A stretch of 64,000 nucleotides of DNA from Meridianimarinicoccus sp. MJW13 (lineage in GTDB: Bacteria; Pseudomonadota; Alphaproteobacteria; Rhodobacterales; Rhodobacteraceae), in contig NZ_JACNMU010000008.1 of assembly GCF_014901205.1 (NCBI RefSeq), forward strand, positions 124,001 through 188,000, in the 5' to 3' direction. Below the pieces are notes generated by a model that saw nothing but the letters and a program-made list of their open reading frames with translations, searched no databases and was not told the origin of the DNA. Shown here one piece after another: positions 54,669 through 61,421 of the stretch; within the stretch, counting starts at the first letter, position 1; every line of letters begins with the position of its first letter. The position numbers and the translations under genes are program-made.

Positions 54669-55214
54669 ATGAAGATCGAACAAATCCACCACGTCGCCTA
54701 CCGTTGCAAGGACGCAAAAGAGACCGTCGAATGGTACGGCAAGATGCTCAACATGGACTTCGTTCTGGCCATTGCCGAGGACAAGGTGCCGTCCACGCAT
54801 GAGCCTGACCCCTACATGCACCTGTTCCTGGACGCAGGAAACGGCAACGTCCTGGCGTTCTTCGAACTGCCGACAAAGGCGGAAATGGGCCGCGACCCGA
54901 ACACGCCTGAATGGGTTCAGCACATCGCCTTCAAGGTCAAGGATCGCGACACGCTGATCGAATTCAAAGAACATCTGGAGGCCAACGGGGTCGAGGTTCT
55001 CGGCATCACCGACCATTCGATGTTCCACTCGATCTATTTCTTCGATCCGAGCGGCCACCGGGTCGAATTGGCCTGTCCCGATCCCGAAGAAGAAGCCATG
55101 CTCGCACGCATGGATGAGGTGAAATGGGATATGCTTGAAGAGTGGTCCCAGACCAAACGCGCTCCGAAGCATGCAGATTGGCTGCACGCAAAAGAGCTCA
55201 AGAAAGACGCCTGA
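54669..55214 (+). CDS. VOC (glyoxalase/dioxygenase fold) protein of the homogentisate operon
   Basis: A 181-residue two-module vicinal-oxygen-chelate protein. Metal ligands are apparent at His8 (IHHVAYRC), Glu66 (AFFELPT), His85 (VQHIAFKV) and Glu133 (HRVELACP), the glyoxalase-I-like set. It is half the length of 4-hydroxyphenylpyruvate dioxygenase and lacks that enzyme's C-terminal half, so it is not a normal HPPD. ATG 54669 follows GGAGAACCCT. It is the first gene before hmgA (62 bp). Its place suggests a role with an aromatic or maleylacetoacetate intermediate, not established. Confidence 0.8.
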
Positions 55215-55276
55215 ACCGGCCAGAACGCACCGAAGATCGATTCGGTGCGTTCGCCCCCAATGCAAGGAGACGCGCG

Positions 55277-56626
55277 ATGAACAACCCGGATACCAACCCC
55301 ATGATTCAGGCCGATGGCGGGCTGACAAACCCCGGCTACATGCCCGGTTTTGGCAACGACTTCGAGACCGAGGCACTGCCCGGCGCTTTGCCGCAAGGCA
55401 TGAATTCGCCCCAGAAATGCAACTATGGCCTGTATGGGGAACAGCTGTCCGGCACTGCCTTCACCGATGTGCGTCCCGAACGGACCTGGTGCTATCGCAT
55501 CCGTCCGTCGGTCAAGCACTCGCACCGCTACGAAAAGATCGACCTGCCCCATTTCCGGTCGGCTCCGGATATCCACCCGGATGTGACCTCGCTGGGTCAG
55601 TACCGCTGGGATCCGATCCCGCATACAGACGAGCCGCTGACGTGGCTGACCGGCATGCGGACGATGACCACGGCAGGCGATGTGAACACCCAGGTGGGCA
55701 TGGCAACGCACGTCTATCTGGTGACCGAATCCATGAAGGACGCGTATTTCTTCTCGGCCGACAGCGAAATGCTGGTGGTTCCGCAGGAAGGCCGCCTGCG
55801 TTTTGCGACAGAGCTGGGGATCATTGATCTTGAACCCAAGGAAATCGCGATCATCCCCCGCGGCCTCGTCTACAGGGTCGAAGTGATCGACGGCCCCGCG
55901 CGCGGCTTCGTGTGCGAGAACTACGGCCAGAAATTCGAACTGCCGGGCCGTGGCCCGATCGGCGCCAACTGCATGGCCAACCCGCGCGATTTCAAGGCGC
56001 CCGTCGCGGCCTATGAAGACCGTGAAGTGCCGTCGACCCTGACCGTGAAATGGTGCGGCCAGTTCCATGAAACCAAGATTGGTCAAAGCCCGCTGGACGT
56101 GGTGGCGTGGCACGGCAACTACGCGCCCTACAAATACGATCTGCGCAACTACTGCCCGGTCGGCGCGATCCTGTTCGACCACCCGGACCCGTCCATCTTC
56201 ACCGTTCTGACCGCGCCCTCGGGCCAGCCCGGCACGGCCAATATCGACTTCGTTCTGTTCCGCGAACGCTGGATGGTGATGGAAGATACGTTCCGCCCGC
56301 CGTGGTACCACAAGAACATCATGTCCGAGCTGATGGGCAACATCTACGGCGAATACGATGCCAAGCCGCAGGGTTTCGTGCCCGGCGGGATCAGCCTGCA
56401 CAACATGATGCTGCCCCACGGTCCTGACCGCGAAGCGTTCGAAAAGGCTTCCAACGCCAATCTCGGCCCCGACAAGCTGGACAACACCATGTCCTTCATG
56501 TTCGAGACCCGCTTCCCGCAGCAACTGACACAGTTCGCGGGCAAGGACGCCCCGCTGCAGGACGACTACATCGACTGCTGGGCGGACATGGAGAAGAAGT
56601 TCGACGGCACGCCGGGCAAGAAGTGA
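55277..56626 (+). CDS. hmgA: Homogentisate 1,2-dioxygenase
   Basis: A 449-residue iron(II) cupin enzyme that opens homogentisate to 4-maleylacetoacetate. Length and sequence are typical: [55 protein letters not shown] (His and Glu iron ligands) and [12 protein letters not shown] (His ligand). ATG 55277 follows AAGGAGACGCG. The open frame further upstream overlaps the VOC gene. Its stop overlaps the GTG start of maiA. Confidence 0.95.
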
Positions 56627-57267
56627 CGGCGATGCTGACGCTCTATTCCTATTGGCGCTCGACCACATCCTACCGGGTGCGGGTGGCGCTGAACCTCAAG
56701 GGGCTGTCCTATCGGACAGTCCCGGTGGACCTTGTCGCCGGCGCGCAACACGCGCCGGACTATGTGGCCTTGAACCCTATCAAGGGCGTGCCGACGCTGG
56801 TGCTGGAGGACGGCACCGCGCTGACCCAATCACTGGCGATCCTGGACTATCTGGATCAAATCGCGCCCGACCCTGCCTTGTTGCCGGACGACCCGGTGCT
56901 GCGGGCCAGGGTGCAGGCGGCGGCACAGGTCATCGCGACGGACATTCATCCGGTCAACAACCTCAAACTCGTGAACCGCCTGAAGTCCGAATACGGGTTG
57001 AGCGCCGATCAAGGCGTGGAATGGATGCGTCACTGGATGACACAAGGGTTGCACGCCTATCAGGCGCTGCTGCCCGAAGGCCCCGCCTACAGCTTTTCGG
57101 ACACTCCGTTGCTGTGCGACATCTGCCTTGTCACCCAGCTTTACAATGCCCATCGCTGGGGTGTCGACCTGACGCCCTTTGCCCGTCTGCTCCAGATCGA
57201 AGAGCAGGCCCTGAAATTGCCGGCATTTGATGCCGCGCGCCCTGAAAACCAGCCCGACGCCACCTGA
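56623..57267 (+). CDS. maiA: Maleylacetoacetate isomerase (zeta-class GST)
   Basis: A 214-residue glutathione-dependent isomerase turning maleylacetoacetate into fumarylacetoacetate. The thioredoxin-like N-domain has the active-site [19 protein letters not shown] (Ser-Ser/Cys region here Ser-Thr-Thr) and [10 protein letters not shown]; the helical C-domain has [12 protein letters not shown] and [17 protein letters not shown] 56623 overlaps the hmgA stop (GTGA); ATG 56632 is an alternative start three residues on. Between hmgA and fahA as expected. Confidence 0.92.
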
Positions 57268-57277
57268 AGGACACCTC

Positions 57278-58528
57278 ATGACACAGCTACTCCGCTCCTG
57301 GGTCGATAGTGCAAATTCGCCCGACACCGACTTCCCGCTCAACAACCTGCCCTATGGCGCCTTCCGCGTTTCGGGCGGCGACCTGCATGCAGGCGTTGCC
57401 ATCGGGGATCACATCCTTGATGTAACGGCTCTGGAACAGGCCGGCATGCTCGACCTGCCGCAAGGTGATGTGTTTGCCCATGGCACATGGAATGACTTCA
57501 TGGCGCTTGGCGCTGATGTCTGGAACAGCTTCCGGGCCTATCTGTCCAAGGCGCTGGCCGAAGGTGCCTCGCAGCAAGCCGATCTTGAAGGGCATCTTGT
57601 GGCGATGGCCGATGCCACGCTGGAAATGCCCTTCAGCGTCACCGAGTTCACTGATTTCTACGCAGGCCGCCATCACGCGTTCAACGTCGGCTGCCTGTTC
57701 CGCGATCCGGCCAATGCCCTGCCGCCCAACTGGCTGCACATCCCGATCGGCTATAACGGCCGCGCGTCCTCGGTTGTGGTCAGCGGCACGGACGTCACCC
57801 GCCCCAACGGCCAGCTGAAAGCGCCGGACATGGACATGCCGGTGTTCGAGGCCTCAAAGCGTTTCGACCTGGAACTGGAAATGGGTGCCATTGTCGGCAA
57901 ACCGTCCAAGGGCCGCGTTTCGGTGCAAGAGGCCGACGACATGATCTTCGGTTATGTGCTGCTGAACGACTGGTCCGCACGCGACATTCAGGCGTGGGAG
58001 TATGTGCCGCTCGGTCCGTTCCAGGCCAAGGCGACGGCGACGACCATCAGCCCCTGGATTGTGACCAAAGCCGCACTTGAACCCTTCCGCGCCTCGACCC
58101 CGCCGCGCGAAAAGGAACTGCTGCCCTATCTCAAGGAACCCGGACCGATGCTCTATGACATCGATCTTGAGGTCGGCCTCGCCCCCGAGGGCAAGTCGGA
58201 AACGATCCTGTCGCGCACGAACTACAGCGTGATGTATTACTCTGCGGCCCAGCAACTGACCCATCACACCACCAGCGGCTGCCCGATGCGGGTTGGCGAT
58301 CTGCTGGGATCGGGCACGATTTCGGGCCCGGAAAAGGAAAACCGCGGCAGTCTTCTGGAACTCAGCTGGGGCGGGAAAGAGCCGCTGACCCTGGACACCG
58401 GAGAGACGCGGACCTTCCTGGAAGACGGTGACACCCTGACCCTGCGCGGCGTCGCCAAGGGCGACGGGTACCGGATCGGGTTTGGTGAGTGCGCAGGCAC
58501 CTTGCGCCCCGCACCCGCCCTCGATTGA
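57278..58528 (+). CDS. fahA: Fumarylacetoacetase
   Basis: A 416-residue hydrolase that splits fumarylacetoacetate to fumarate and acetoacetate, the last step of tyrosine breakdown. Family segments are TDFYAGRHHAFNVGCLFRD, IPIGYNGRASSVVVSGT, the metal-site LELEMGAIVG, LLNDWSARDIQAWEYVPLGP, and SGCPMRVGDLLGSGTISGP. Normal length. ATG 57278 follows GAAGGACACC. It ends the operon before a hairpin. Confidence 0.95.
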   Translation: MTQLLRSWVDSANSPDTDFPLNNLPYGAFRVSGGDLHAGVAIGDHILDVTALEQAGMLDLPQGDVFAHGTWNDFMALGADVWNSFRAYLSKALAEGASQQADLEGHLVAMADATLEMPFSVTEFTDFYAGRHHAFNVGCLFRDPANALPPNWLHIPIGYNGRASSVVVSGTDVTRPNGQLKAPDMDMPVFEASKRFDLELEMGAIVGKPSKGRVSVQEADDMIFGYVLLNDWSARDIQAWEYVPLGPFQAKATATTISPWIVTKAALEPFRASTPPREKELLPYLKEPGPMLYDIDLEVGLAPEGKSETILSRTNYSVMYYSAAQQLTHHTTSGCPMRVGDLLGSGTISGPEKENRGSLLELSWGGKEPLTLDTGETRTFLEDGDTLTLRGVAKGDGYRIGFGECAGTLRPAPALD

Positions 58529-58535
58529 ACGACAC

Positions 58536-58562
58536 GACCGTCGCAGCCCGACTGCGGCGGTC
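58536..58562 (+). terminator. Hairpin after fahA
   Basis: GACCGTCGCAG (58536-58546) and CTGCGGCGGTC (58552-58562) make an 11-bp stem with one G-U pair and a 5-base loop, 8 bp after the fahA stop; no T-run. Likely end of the homogentisate transcript. Confidence 0.5.
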
Positions 58563-58605
58563 ACCTTCCGGACGGGACCGCAGCGAATGATCACATCGGC
58601 GATCG

Positions 58606-60402
58606 ATGACGGCCCTTGCACCAAATCCCCCGATGGCCGCAACACACCCCCGCACTGACAAAGTCCCTTGCGCGACTGCCGGTATGACGGTCGCGATACG
58701 GGCTCCGGCATTCAGGACAGCCCGACCTCTGCCGTCCGCGGCGCGATTTCCCTTTGACGACACGCAGGACTTCGACGAGGCATTTCAGAGGCTGATCGCG
58801 GCGCCGGACAGCCTGCAGATCGAAGCCGAGGCGGGCGGGTTCGCCTGGGATCTGGAGCGCTTCGACTTCCTGAAACAGGGCGAAAACTTCGACAGCATCC
58901 ACCCGTCGTTGGAACGGCAAGCCCGGCTGACCACCCAGTTCGGCTTGTACGAGGTCATGGACGGCATCTACCAGGTCCGCGGCTACGACCTGTCAAACCT
59001 GACGCTGATCGAAAGCGAAACGGGCTGGATGGTCTATCAGTATGCCTTCCTGCTGCCGGCCAGCCCCTTTGGCTATGTCACGCAGGGTCTGGGCCAGTCT
59101 GCCTCCAGCGGCGCGACAGGTCTTGTCGCACCGACGATGGAAATCACCGATCCGATTGAAGAGCACATCATCGACGGCGTGAAGATGGTCTTCCAGTTGA
59201 CGCCGGGCACCGAGGCGCCGTCCGAGTTGAACACCTATCTTCCGGACATGAAGGCGCTGTGGATGGCCGAGAACGTCACCGGGACGATGCACAACATCTA
59301 TACCTTGCGCGGTGCGCAGGTGCGCGATGCGCTCGGCTGGTCACAGTTCATCAACGAAGCGCTTCAGATGTTCGGCCAGGACGCCGAGGTCATGTTCGCC
59401 TCGCATCACTGGCCGCGCTTTGGCAACGCCCGCATCCAGGAGGTGCTGCGGGCGCAACGGGATCTTTACGCCAACCTCAACAACCAGGTGCTGCACTTCG
59501 CCAACCAGGGCGTAACGATCAACGAAATCCACAACGTTTATGAACCGCCCGCGAGCATCGCGAACAACTGGTTCAACCGGGGCTACCATGGCTCGGTGCA
59601 GCACAACGTGCGCGCCGTCATCAACCGCTATCTGGGATACTGGGATGCGAACCCCGCAATGCTGATCCCGCTGTCCCCTGCCGACGCCGCCCCTCTTTAT
59701 GTCGAAATGATGGGCGGTGCCAATGCGATCATGGCGAAAGGTCAGGAGCTGTTCGACGGGGGTGCGTATTTCCAGGCGGTCGAGATACTCAACAAGCTGG
59801 TCTATGCGGAACCCGCCAATACCATCGGCTACCAGCAGGAAAACCCGGGCCTGCGGAACAGCTTCCTGGCAGGCGCATACGAATTGCGCTCGCCGCCGCC
59901 GCAGGGCACCGCGACCGAGACAGCGACCCCCGATGTGATCCAGGCGATGGCCACGGGGCTGTTTCTCGACTACGTCGGTGTCAAGATGGACAGTCGCAAG
60001 GTCGGCGACCTCGCGTTCACCGTCAACATCGTGCATCCGGACATCGACGAGCAGTACATCCTTGAACTGAGCAACGCCACGTTGACCAACATCGAAGGGT
60101 ACCAGGCCGACGACGCTGATCTGACGGTGACCATCGACCGCGAACAGCTTGTGCCGGTGATGATCGGCGAGGCGACGATCGACGCACAGATCGACGCCGG
60201 CAATGCCCGGGCCGAGGGCGACCGGACGGTCCTCACGCAAATGGCCTCGTTGCTGACCGACTTTGAAATGACCTTCGAAGTCATGCCCGGCACCGATGGG
60301 GCCACGGCGGTACCGGGGCGGTATGACACCGTGGATGCAGCGACCGGCGAAGGACCCTTCGAGGTCAAGACATCCAGCGGCAGTTCCGTCCTGCCGAACT
60401 GA
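58606..60402 (+). CDS. Alkylsulfatase (SdsA1-type) homologue lacking the HxHxDH zinc segment
   Basis: A 598-residue relative of linear primary alkylsulfatases (SdsA1/YjcS). The alkylsulfatase domains are clear: PFDDTQDFDEAFQRLIA, LYEVMDGIYQVRGYDLSNLT, GLGQSASSG, FQLTPGTEAPSELNTYLP, MAENVTGTMHNIYTLRGAQV and FASHHWPRFGN, then the dimerisation and sterol-carrier-like C-terminal domain. Where the family has about 85-90 residues with THSHxDHFGG, this protein jumps from GWMV to YQYAFLLPASPFGYV (seam near 59034). So the zinc-binding motif is absent though the frame is open. The N-terminus shows no normal signal peptide. It is probably inactive as a sulfatase or a gene in decay. Confidence 0.8.
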   Translation: MTALAPNPPMAATHPRTDKVPCATAGMTVAIRAPAFRTARPLPSAARFPFDDTQDFDEAFQRLIAAPDSLQIEAEAGGFAWDLERFDFLKQGENFDSIHPSLERQARLTTQFGLYEVMDGIYQVRGYDLSNLTLIESETGWMVYQYAFLLPASPFGYVTQGLGQSASSGATGLVAPTMEITDPIEEHIIDGVKMVFQLTPGTEAPSELNTYLPDMKALWMAENVTGTMHNIYTLRGAQVRDALGWSQFINEALQMFGQDAEVMFASHHWPRFGNARIQEVLRAQRDLYANLNNQVLHFANQGVTINEIHNVYEPPASIANNWFNRGYHGSVQHNVRAVINRYLGYWDANPAMLIPLSPADAAPLYVEMMGGANAIMAKGQELFDGGAYFQAVEILNKLVYAEPANTIGYQQENPGLRNSFLAGAYELRSPPPQGTATETATPDVIQAMATGLFLDYVGVKMDSRKVGDLAFTVNIVHPDIDEQYILELSNATLTNIEGYQADDADLTVTIDREQLVPVMIGEATIDAQIDAGNARAEGDRTVLTQMASLLTDFEMTFEVMPGTDGATAVPGRYDTVDAATGEGPFEVKTSSGSSVLPN

Positions 60403-60635
60403 AGCCGCCCACCTGACGAAGATGCGCCTGCACGCCCCAACCGCGTGCGGGCGTCCCCGCAAGGGTGACGCACTCAACGGTCTGATTGGCGCCGCCGTCC
60501 CCGAGCTTTCTCAAACCAGACGCTGCCGGACCAAAACTTTGGTTTGGCCAGCGCCTGCACACAACCTAGTATCCTGCCAGACACGCCCGCCAGAGTCGCA
60601 ACCGACGATCCGATGTGATCGCGAAGGAACACAGC

Positions 60636-61421
60636 ATGTTTGACTTTCCGCCCCTTGCACGTTCTGTCGTCCTGCTGACGGCGGCCGTATTTCTGGCCAC
60701 CGCGTCCGAGGCCCAGGATGCGGACGCCGAAGCCAACAACCCCCTGGCCAACACAACCGCGCTCAACTTCCAGAACCAGTATTTCGGCCAGATCGAGGGC
60801 CTGGATCGCGACGCCAACCAGTTCTACCTGCGATATGCACAGCCCTTCGGCGCCTTCGGCGGCAACTGGCTGGCCCGGTTCACAGCCCCCGTGAACACTC
60901 TTCCGGAAGTCGGCAGCGGCGATCAGACCGGGCTGGGGGATCTTAATCTTTTTGCCGCCTACCTGTTCGACACCGGCAACCCGGCCATCAGCTTCGGGAT
61001 CGGGCCGCAGGTCACGGCCCCCACGGCGACGAAGGATGAGCTGGGGTCCGGCAAATGGTCCGTCGGGCTCGCCAACGTTCTGTTCAATGCCACCAACCCG
61101 AAGTTCCAGTGGGGGTACCTGCTGACCTGGCAGGCAAGCGTGGCCGGCGACAAGGACCGCGACGACGTCAACATCGGGGCCTTCCAGCCGTTCGGGTTCT
61201 ATCAGCTGGGCCAGGGCTGGTATCTGCGCTCTGCTAGCGTCTGGACATACAACTTCGAAACCGACAGCTACGGTGTGCCGCTGAGCCTGGGCCTCGGCAA
61301 AGTGATCGAGACGGAGCATGCGGTCATCAACATCTACGCCGAACCGCAAAAATATGTCTGGACCAGCGGCGACGGCCAGCCGGAATGGGGCGTGTTCGCG
61401 GGCGTGAATTTCCAGTTCTGA
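60636..61421 (+). CDS. Small outer-membrane barrel, probable porin-like transporter
   Basis: A 261-residue exported protein. Signal peptide of about 23 residues (MFDFPPLARS..., cleavage near SEA), then alternating beta-strands (NQFYLRYAQPFG, GLGDLNLFAAYLF, YGVPLSLGLGKVI) and a terminal Phe (GVNFQF), typical of an outer-membrane barrel. It belongs to the same broad class as the barrel at 815-1798. ATG 60636 follows GAAGGAACAC; an in-frame GTG at 60615 is less likely. It may have served substrate entry for the alkylsulfatase-like protein encoded upstream, 233 bp away. Confidence 0.65.
   Translation: MFDFPPLARSVVLLTAAVFLATASEAQDADAEANNPLANTTALNFQNQYFGQIEGLDRDANQFYLRYAQPFGAFGGNWLARFTAPVNTLPEVGSGDQTGLGDLNLFAAYLFDTGNPAISFGIGPQVTAPTATKDELGSGKWSVGLANVLFNATNPKFQWGYLLTWQASVAGDKDRDDVNIGAFQPFGFYQLGQGWYLRSASVWTYNFETDSYGVPLSLGLGKVIETEHAVINIYAEPQKYVWTSGDGQPEWGVFAGVNFQF

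Follow-up and report, generated by a model that had tools for sequence, protein, structure and literature searches.

A probable recent pseudogene of an SdsA1-type alkylsulfatase in Meridianimarinicoccus sp. MJW13

The window, a 64,000-nucleotide stretch of contig NZ_JACNMU010000008.1, contains at 58606-60402 (forward strand) a remnant of an SdsA1-type (type III) alkylsulfatase gene, read as an open frame of 598 codons. We regard it as very likely that this gene is a recently decayed pseudogene of an exported enzyme, arisen through an ordinary short-repeat deletion. Three separate lesions mark it: the zinc-binding segment, 12 residues of the dimerisation domain and the 5' end are lost. These lesions point to recent decay together with gaps that are unique among the relatives, a broken sister gene, a phase-matched repeat at the seam, further broken copies in other genomes (G219, G044, L069 and G186) and a poor structural model compared to that of a control protein (L036). 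Nothing in the gene calls for a new function.

Three lesions in the alkylsulfatase gene

In a phmmer search of solved structures, the 598-codon frame matched SdsA1 (2cfu) at E 3.1e-157, along with five other solved sequences of the SdsA1 family. Pfam placed the alkyl sulfatase dimerisation domain PF14863 (E 3.3e-39) at 59515-59892 and the SCP2-like C-terminal domain PF14864 (E 2.1e-36) at 59920-60285, both on the forward strand, and reported no lactamase domain in the window protein, for which NCBIfam likewise gave no match. Compared to SdsA1 of Pseudomonas aeruginosa, the protein retains the domain order, the dimerisation and C-terminal domains and the equivalents of E280, E299 and H344, whereas it has lost H169, H171, D173 and H174 with their surrounding residues, the leader and a 12-residue piece of the dimerisation domain. 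The metallo-beta-lactamase-like domain is incomplete, with 84 codons gone. An annotation as alkyl sulfatase, drawn from the two C-terminal domains, would be wrong on activity. A literature search found no paper whose title concerns this gene.

The first lesion lies directly behind GWMV (residues 140-143, ending at 59034), which joins YQYAFLLPASPFGYV without a break in the frame. The loss of the HxHxDH segment in frame, as described in the sequence-only reading, holds against all 51 relatives compared, comprising 50 with long open frames and the gene of genome G041: each carries 83-86 residues at this place and the window protein carries none. That reading had put the missing piece at 85-90 residues or about 260 bases, close to the 252 bp (84 codons, after residue 143) that are lost relative to the G041 gene. 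It had also suggested an alignment with SdsA1, and here the query indeed breaks at residue 143. Residues 24-152 align with residues 16-144 of the 2cfu chain and residues 143-560 with residues 220-650, so that H169, H171, D173 and H174 are among the SdsA1 residues left unmatched.

For the related SdsAP, the zinc ligands are given as His192, His194, Asp196, His197, Glu303, Glu322 and His367 (PMC5426288). Because their spacing is the same as in SdsA1, we take E203 (59212-59214), E222 (59269-59271) and H267 (59404-59406, all on the forward strand) as the three ligands that remain; they correspond to E280, E299 and H344 of SdsA1, with residue numbers counted from the phmmer alignment to 2cfu. According to this ligand set, four of the seven ligands, those of HxHxDH, sat in the deleted segment. 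The three retained positions, assigned from phmmer and the relatives' alignment, hold the same residue in all 50 long-open-frame relatives. The possibility that the zinc residues lie elsewhere in the protein, raised in the earlier reading, was not borne out, as HxHxDH occurs nowhere in it; the motif is present in 53 of the 54 relatives tested and absent from one gene fragment (L069). When the segment of the G041 gene was used as query against the 4.0 Mb assembly of the window's own genome, four weak matches appeared (best E 0.12), one of them a distant paralogue on contig C14, and none was accepted as a detached copy of the zinc segment.

The seam can be placed at TCTAT (59033-59037, forward strand) by comparison with the G041 gene, in which the left edge of the segment reads GCCTATGAC and the right edge TTCTATCAG, as compared to GTCTATCAG in the window. 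CTAT stands on both flanks in the G041 gene, and TCTAT is what is left in the window. Since both copies share the same codon phase, a deletion between them is automatically in frame, and a short repeat in matching phase can alone explain the clean join. Bacterial pseudogenes can arise by deletion between short direct repeats, and the window gene resembles such cases in having a repeat at the seam of which one copy is left; the in-frame phase of this repeat is its only special point. Most likely, slippage or recombination between the CTAT/TCTAT copies removed the 252-bp stretch, which encoded HxHxDH together with two strands of the metallo-beta-lactamase fold. The option of a recent in-frame deletion, given in the sequence-only reading, is supported by this repeat, by the absence of the gap from the fetched relatives and by the slight erosion of what remains of the gene. 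We infer the order of events, the slippage or short-homology mechanism and the lack of function.

A second in-frame deletion of 12 codons follows codon 405 or 406 (59818-59826, forward strand), its placement differing between the phmmer and relatives' alignments. All 51 relatives hold the 12 residues, and neither of the two internal gaps was found in any of them. The codons at the edges of this 36-bp loss, as we read them, show no clear repeat. It would have been a separate event, cutting into a helix of the dimerisation domain.

The third lesion concerns the 5' end. Codons 46-143 (58741-59034, forward strand) align with SdsA1 and the relatives up to GWMV, whereas codons 1-45 (58606-58740, forward strand) have no homology to the relatives and a composition of non-coding type. 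GC content at codon positions 1, 2 and 3 is.64,.71 and.62 in codons 1-45, compared to.62,.37 and.86 in codons 46-143 and.62,.40 and.82 in codons 144-571. Based on homology and composition, the listed frame starts in unrelated and probably non-coding DNA. In the relatives, the mature protein follows a leader, to which most inspected cases add a HFHPKGKxPS-like stretch (present in 42 of 53 rows); neither was seen upstream of PFDDTQDFDE in the three forward frames of the window, and AGGA, GGAG, GAGG and AAGG were all absent from 58560-58620. N-terminal hydropathy does not separate the window protein (1.61) from the relatives (median 1.76 in 53 rows), and it is therefore homology and composition that indicate the absence of an export leader. 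The 5' end would thus have been lost together with the leader, the first 45 codons being a chance extension into unrelated DNA. With this truncated start and the second gap, the view in the sequence-only reading that the rest of the protein is well kept over 598 codons had to be given up.

Relatives and broken copies

The set of relatives was restricted to open frames of at least 600 aa scoring at least 600 bits, which yielded 51 sequences and, after removal of duplicates, 50. The label of a long open or intact frame reflects these two thresholds alone, with distant and broken homologues left out. The G041 gene (L007) was added to the alignment of the 50 as its 51st member. It is the nearest relative found, at 82.5% identity over 571 residues, and comes from another genus of the same family, having emerged from a search of 394 family genomes. 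Like the window gene, it has the same gene downstream; unlike it, the G041 gene keeps both HxHxDH and the 12-residue piece and is broken by two stops, one at the leader boundary and one internal, and by a frame change that closely follows the zinc segment. One of the five other genomes searched in the genus of G041 holds an open-frame homologue at 60%. In the window's own genus, two of six other genomes hold a homologue (38-42% identity); these split the query at residue 143 with about 250 bp between the pieces, which indicates that the zinc segment is present. At E 0.001, 46 of the 394 family genomes and 33 of the 390 order genomes gave a match of any kind, in overlapping samples that count the window's own genome, many of the matches being distant homologues. 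The distribution of the alkylsulfatase gene is sporadic.

Other broken copies occur. The copy in G219 lies in pieces in several frames, and it is called broken from these separate frames, as its three stops may include the normal end; the copy in G044 has an apparent frame change. The fragment in Microvirga massiliensis (L069:4827-5930) is without either end, and a fragment in G186 (L030:1-460) is 3'-truncated, ending soon after the zinc segment begins. An alkylsulfatase on an IMG/VR viral contig (L105:5001-6965) equals the copies in L066 and L010 in phmmer score and length and is perhaps host DNA around a provirus.

Among 161 fetched loci, 99 of which have both arms (duplicates and the window's own copies counted), nine matches run through the seam. 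The window's own gene accounts for two of them (L001 and L110), and four contain the zinc segment or its start (L015, L023, L131 and L030). The remaining three (L147, L149 and L155), members of a distant subfamily with an altered zinc motif, were rejected as same-gap cases and read as chance extensions of the right arm. Over these 161 loci, homology on both sides of the seam runs through it only in the window's own gene. No relative with the same gap was seen in the matches of 7 genus, 394 family and 390 order genomes (overlapping samples that include the window's own genome), nor in genome contigs, viral contigs or among the plasmid matches listed, which were read from 30 of 158 records and consist of two pieces at each place listed.

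Selection, predicted structure and rival explanations

The sequence that remains is little eroded. Of the columns that do not vary among the 50 relatives, the window gene departs at 3 of 95 and the G041 gene at 4 of 94, compared to a leave-one-out mean of 1.02 among the relatives and a maximum of 12; the latter belongs to L050, whose match begins only at residue 94 and whose start may be damaged. At the level of 95% conservation, the window gene departs at 12 of 177 and the G041 gene at 10 of 176 columns, both at the high end of the relatives (mean 3.84, maximum 13). In a codon model of our own implementation, run on 12 of 55 alignment rows and the 502 codons present in all 12, omega was 0.036 on the window branch, 0.026 on the G041 branch and 0.029 on the rest, a comparison weakened by saturated synonymous sites (branch lengths of 2.5 and 3.7 neutral units). 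Separate branch ratios were no better than one ratio (lnL -13013.47 versus -13013.56), and forcing the window-branch omega to 1 lowered lnL to -13016.19, worse by 2.7 log units.

An open frame, losses in multiples of three, little erosion and a window omega of 0.036 could mean that selection still acts. By our estimate, both internal losses would be multiples of three in one case out of nine by chance if their lengths were random. The dN/dS ratio, proposed in the earlier reading as a check, is indeed low, yet it does not settle present function, since the broken G041 gene has an omega that is just as low. Given that this gene matches the window gene in omega and in departures, most of the divergence would predate decay and a working window gene is not implied; with 4 of 94 departures and an omega of 0.026 in the G041 gene, the low erosion fits recent decay at least as well.

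AlphaFold models of the window protein and of L036, a control with a long open frame, were built on a common set of 28 sequences. Mean pLDDT was 60.5 and pTM 0.63 for the window protein, compared to 83.1 and 0.85 for L036. Residues 143-176 and 404-440 fall under pLDDT 50 (blocks 141-180 at 31-46 and 401-440 at 28-39), and the SCP2-like domain is the best-predicted part, with residues 451-550 at block values of 84-96. In the L036 model, strands 127-131 and 158-162 fall within the lost segment along with several helices; helix 448-464 contains the second gap. Foldseek matched the window model to SdsA1-type structures at E 1e-43 with a TM score of only 0.46 and an rmsd of 21, as expected from a poor model. 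Although AlphaFold confidence says little about stability and is no proof, these values are consistent with a decayed gene. If the gene has recently decayed, its product, should it be made, would be unable to form the two-zinc centre and would probably be cytoplasmic and probably not folded as an alkylsulfatase.

It is improbable, in our judgement, that the gene encodes a pseudo-enzyme that lost catalysis and was kept as a cytoplasmic binding or scaffolding protein via its SCP2-like and dimerisation domains. Its open frame, in-frame losses and low omega resemble such a protein, as does the well-predicted SCP2-like domain; however, the gap is conserved in no fetched relative, the 5' end is gone and the dimerisation domain is damaged, with its low-confidence stretch at residues 401-440. 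Furthermore, a sister gene broken by plain stops gives an equally low dN/dS, the seam repeat reduces the open frame to a matter of phase, and the zinc-altered subfamily, which has a member in the same genome, looks different in being full length and common to distant taxa. In light of the 5' truncation, the second deletion and the broken sister gene, a pseudo-enzyme with another role, one of the options in the sequence-only reading, finds little support. The combination of a long open frame, a clean in-frame gap and low dN/dS should hence be read with caution. More doubtful still is a metal-free, dead remnant kept as a cytoplasmic dimer that binds alkyl chains or lipids, in which both deletions would have been selected against catalysis, altering the interface.

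We consider an assembly error very unlikely. The genome is in 20 contigs, and a segment still present in it might have been collapsed out of the contig, as the earlier reading had allowed; such a collapse would nevertheless need a long near-identical repeat, where the seam shares only 4-5 bp, and two events within one gene, both in frame, and no recognisable copy of the segment was found elsewhere in the assembly. Least credible is a still-active enzyme holding zinc by other residues: E203, E222 and H267 are kept, but four ligands, two strands, several helices of the fold and the leader are gone and the protein has no other HxHxDH.

A candidate zinc-altered subfamily and the neighbouring genes

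The window's genome also encodes a full-length alkylsulfatase-like protein of 637 aa with PF14863 and PF14864 (L002:775-2688; C14:82152-84062). With HSH--TVLG at the motif, it is without the D and H of HxHxDH, and a W occurs in the region that carries the second Glu or an Asp in other homologues. The two-residue loss and the W are common to six proteins from five genomes across Pseudomonadota, this one included; the others are a Vibrio fortis plasmid protein (L147:5893-7731, the same protein as L149), two proteins in L148, one in L150 and one in L155, the last from another family of the window's class. BLASTP of the Vibrio fortis protein against the paralogue gave 34% over 608 columns. HxHxDH is intact in most of the other homologues tabulated alongside. 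A search of 295 family genomes yielded nothing close to the paralogue, the best match standing at 33% or less. From these sequences, the six look like a conserved zinc-altered subfamily, a candidate for a conserved pseudo-enzyme or for an altered metal site, and in our view it is a better lead than the decayed gene. The paralogue is flanked by two DUF1254/DUF1214 genes (L002:12-815 and L002:2795-3817); a literature search limited to the pairing of alkyl sulfatase with DUF1254 found no paper combining them.

Downstream of the decayed gene lies an open frame at 60615-61421 (forward strand), with no Pfam match for 60636-61421. Its G041 counterpart (64% over 217 aa) also adjoins a broken alkylsulfatase copy, so the pair is kept together while the alkylsulfatase partner decays. 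Upstream, 55142-58528 holds in a row a homogentisate dioxygenase, a glutathione-S-transferase-like gene and a fumarylacetoacetase. Of the six other genomes of the genus, one alone has a close fumarylacetoacetase (64%). About 1.9 kb upstream of the zinc-altered paralogue, C14:79538-80227 encodes a homologue (27%) of the 60636-61421 protein.
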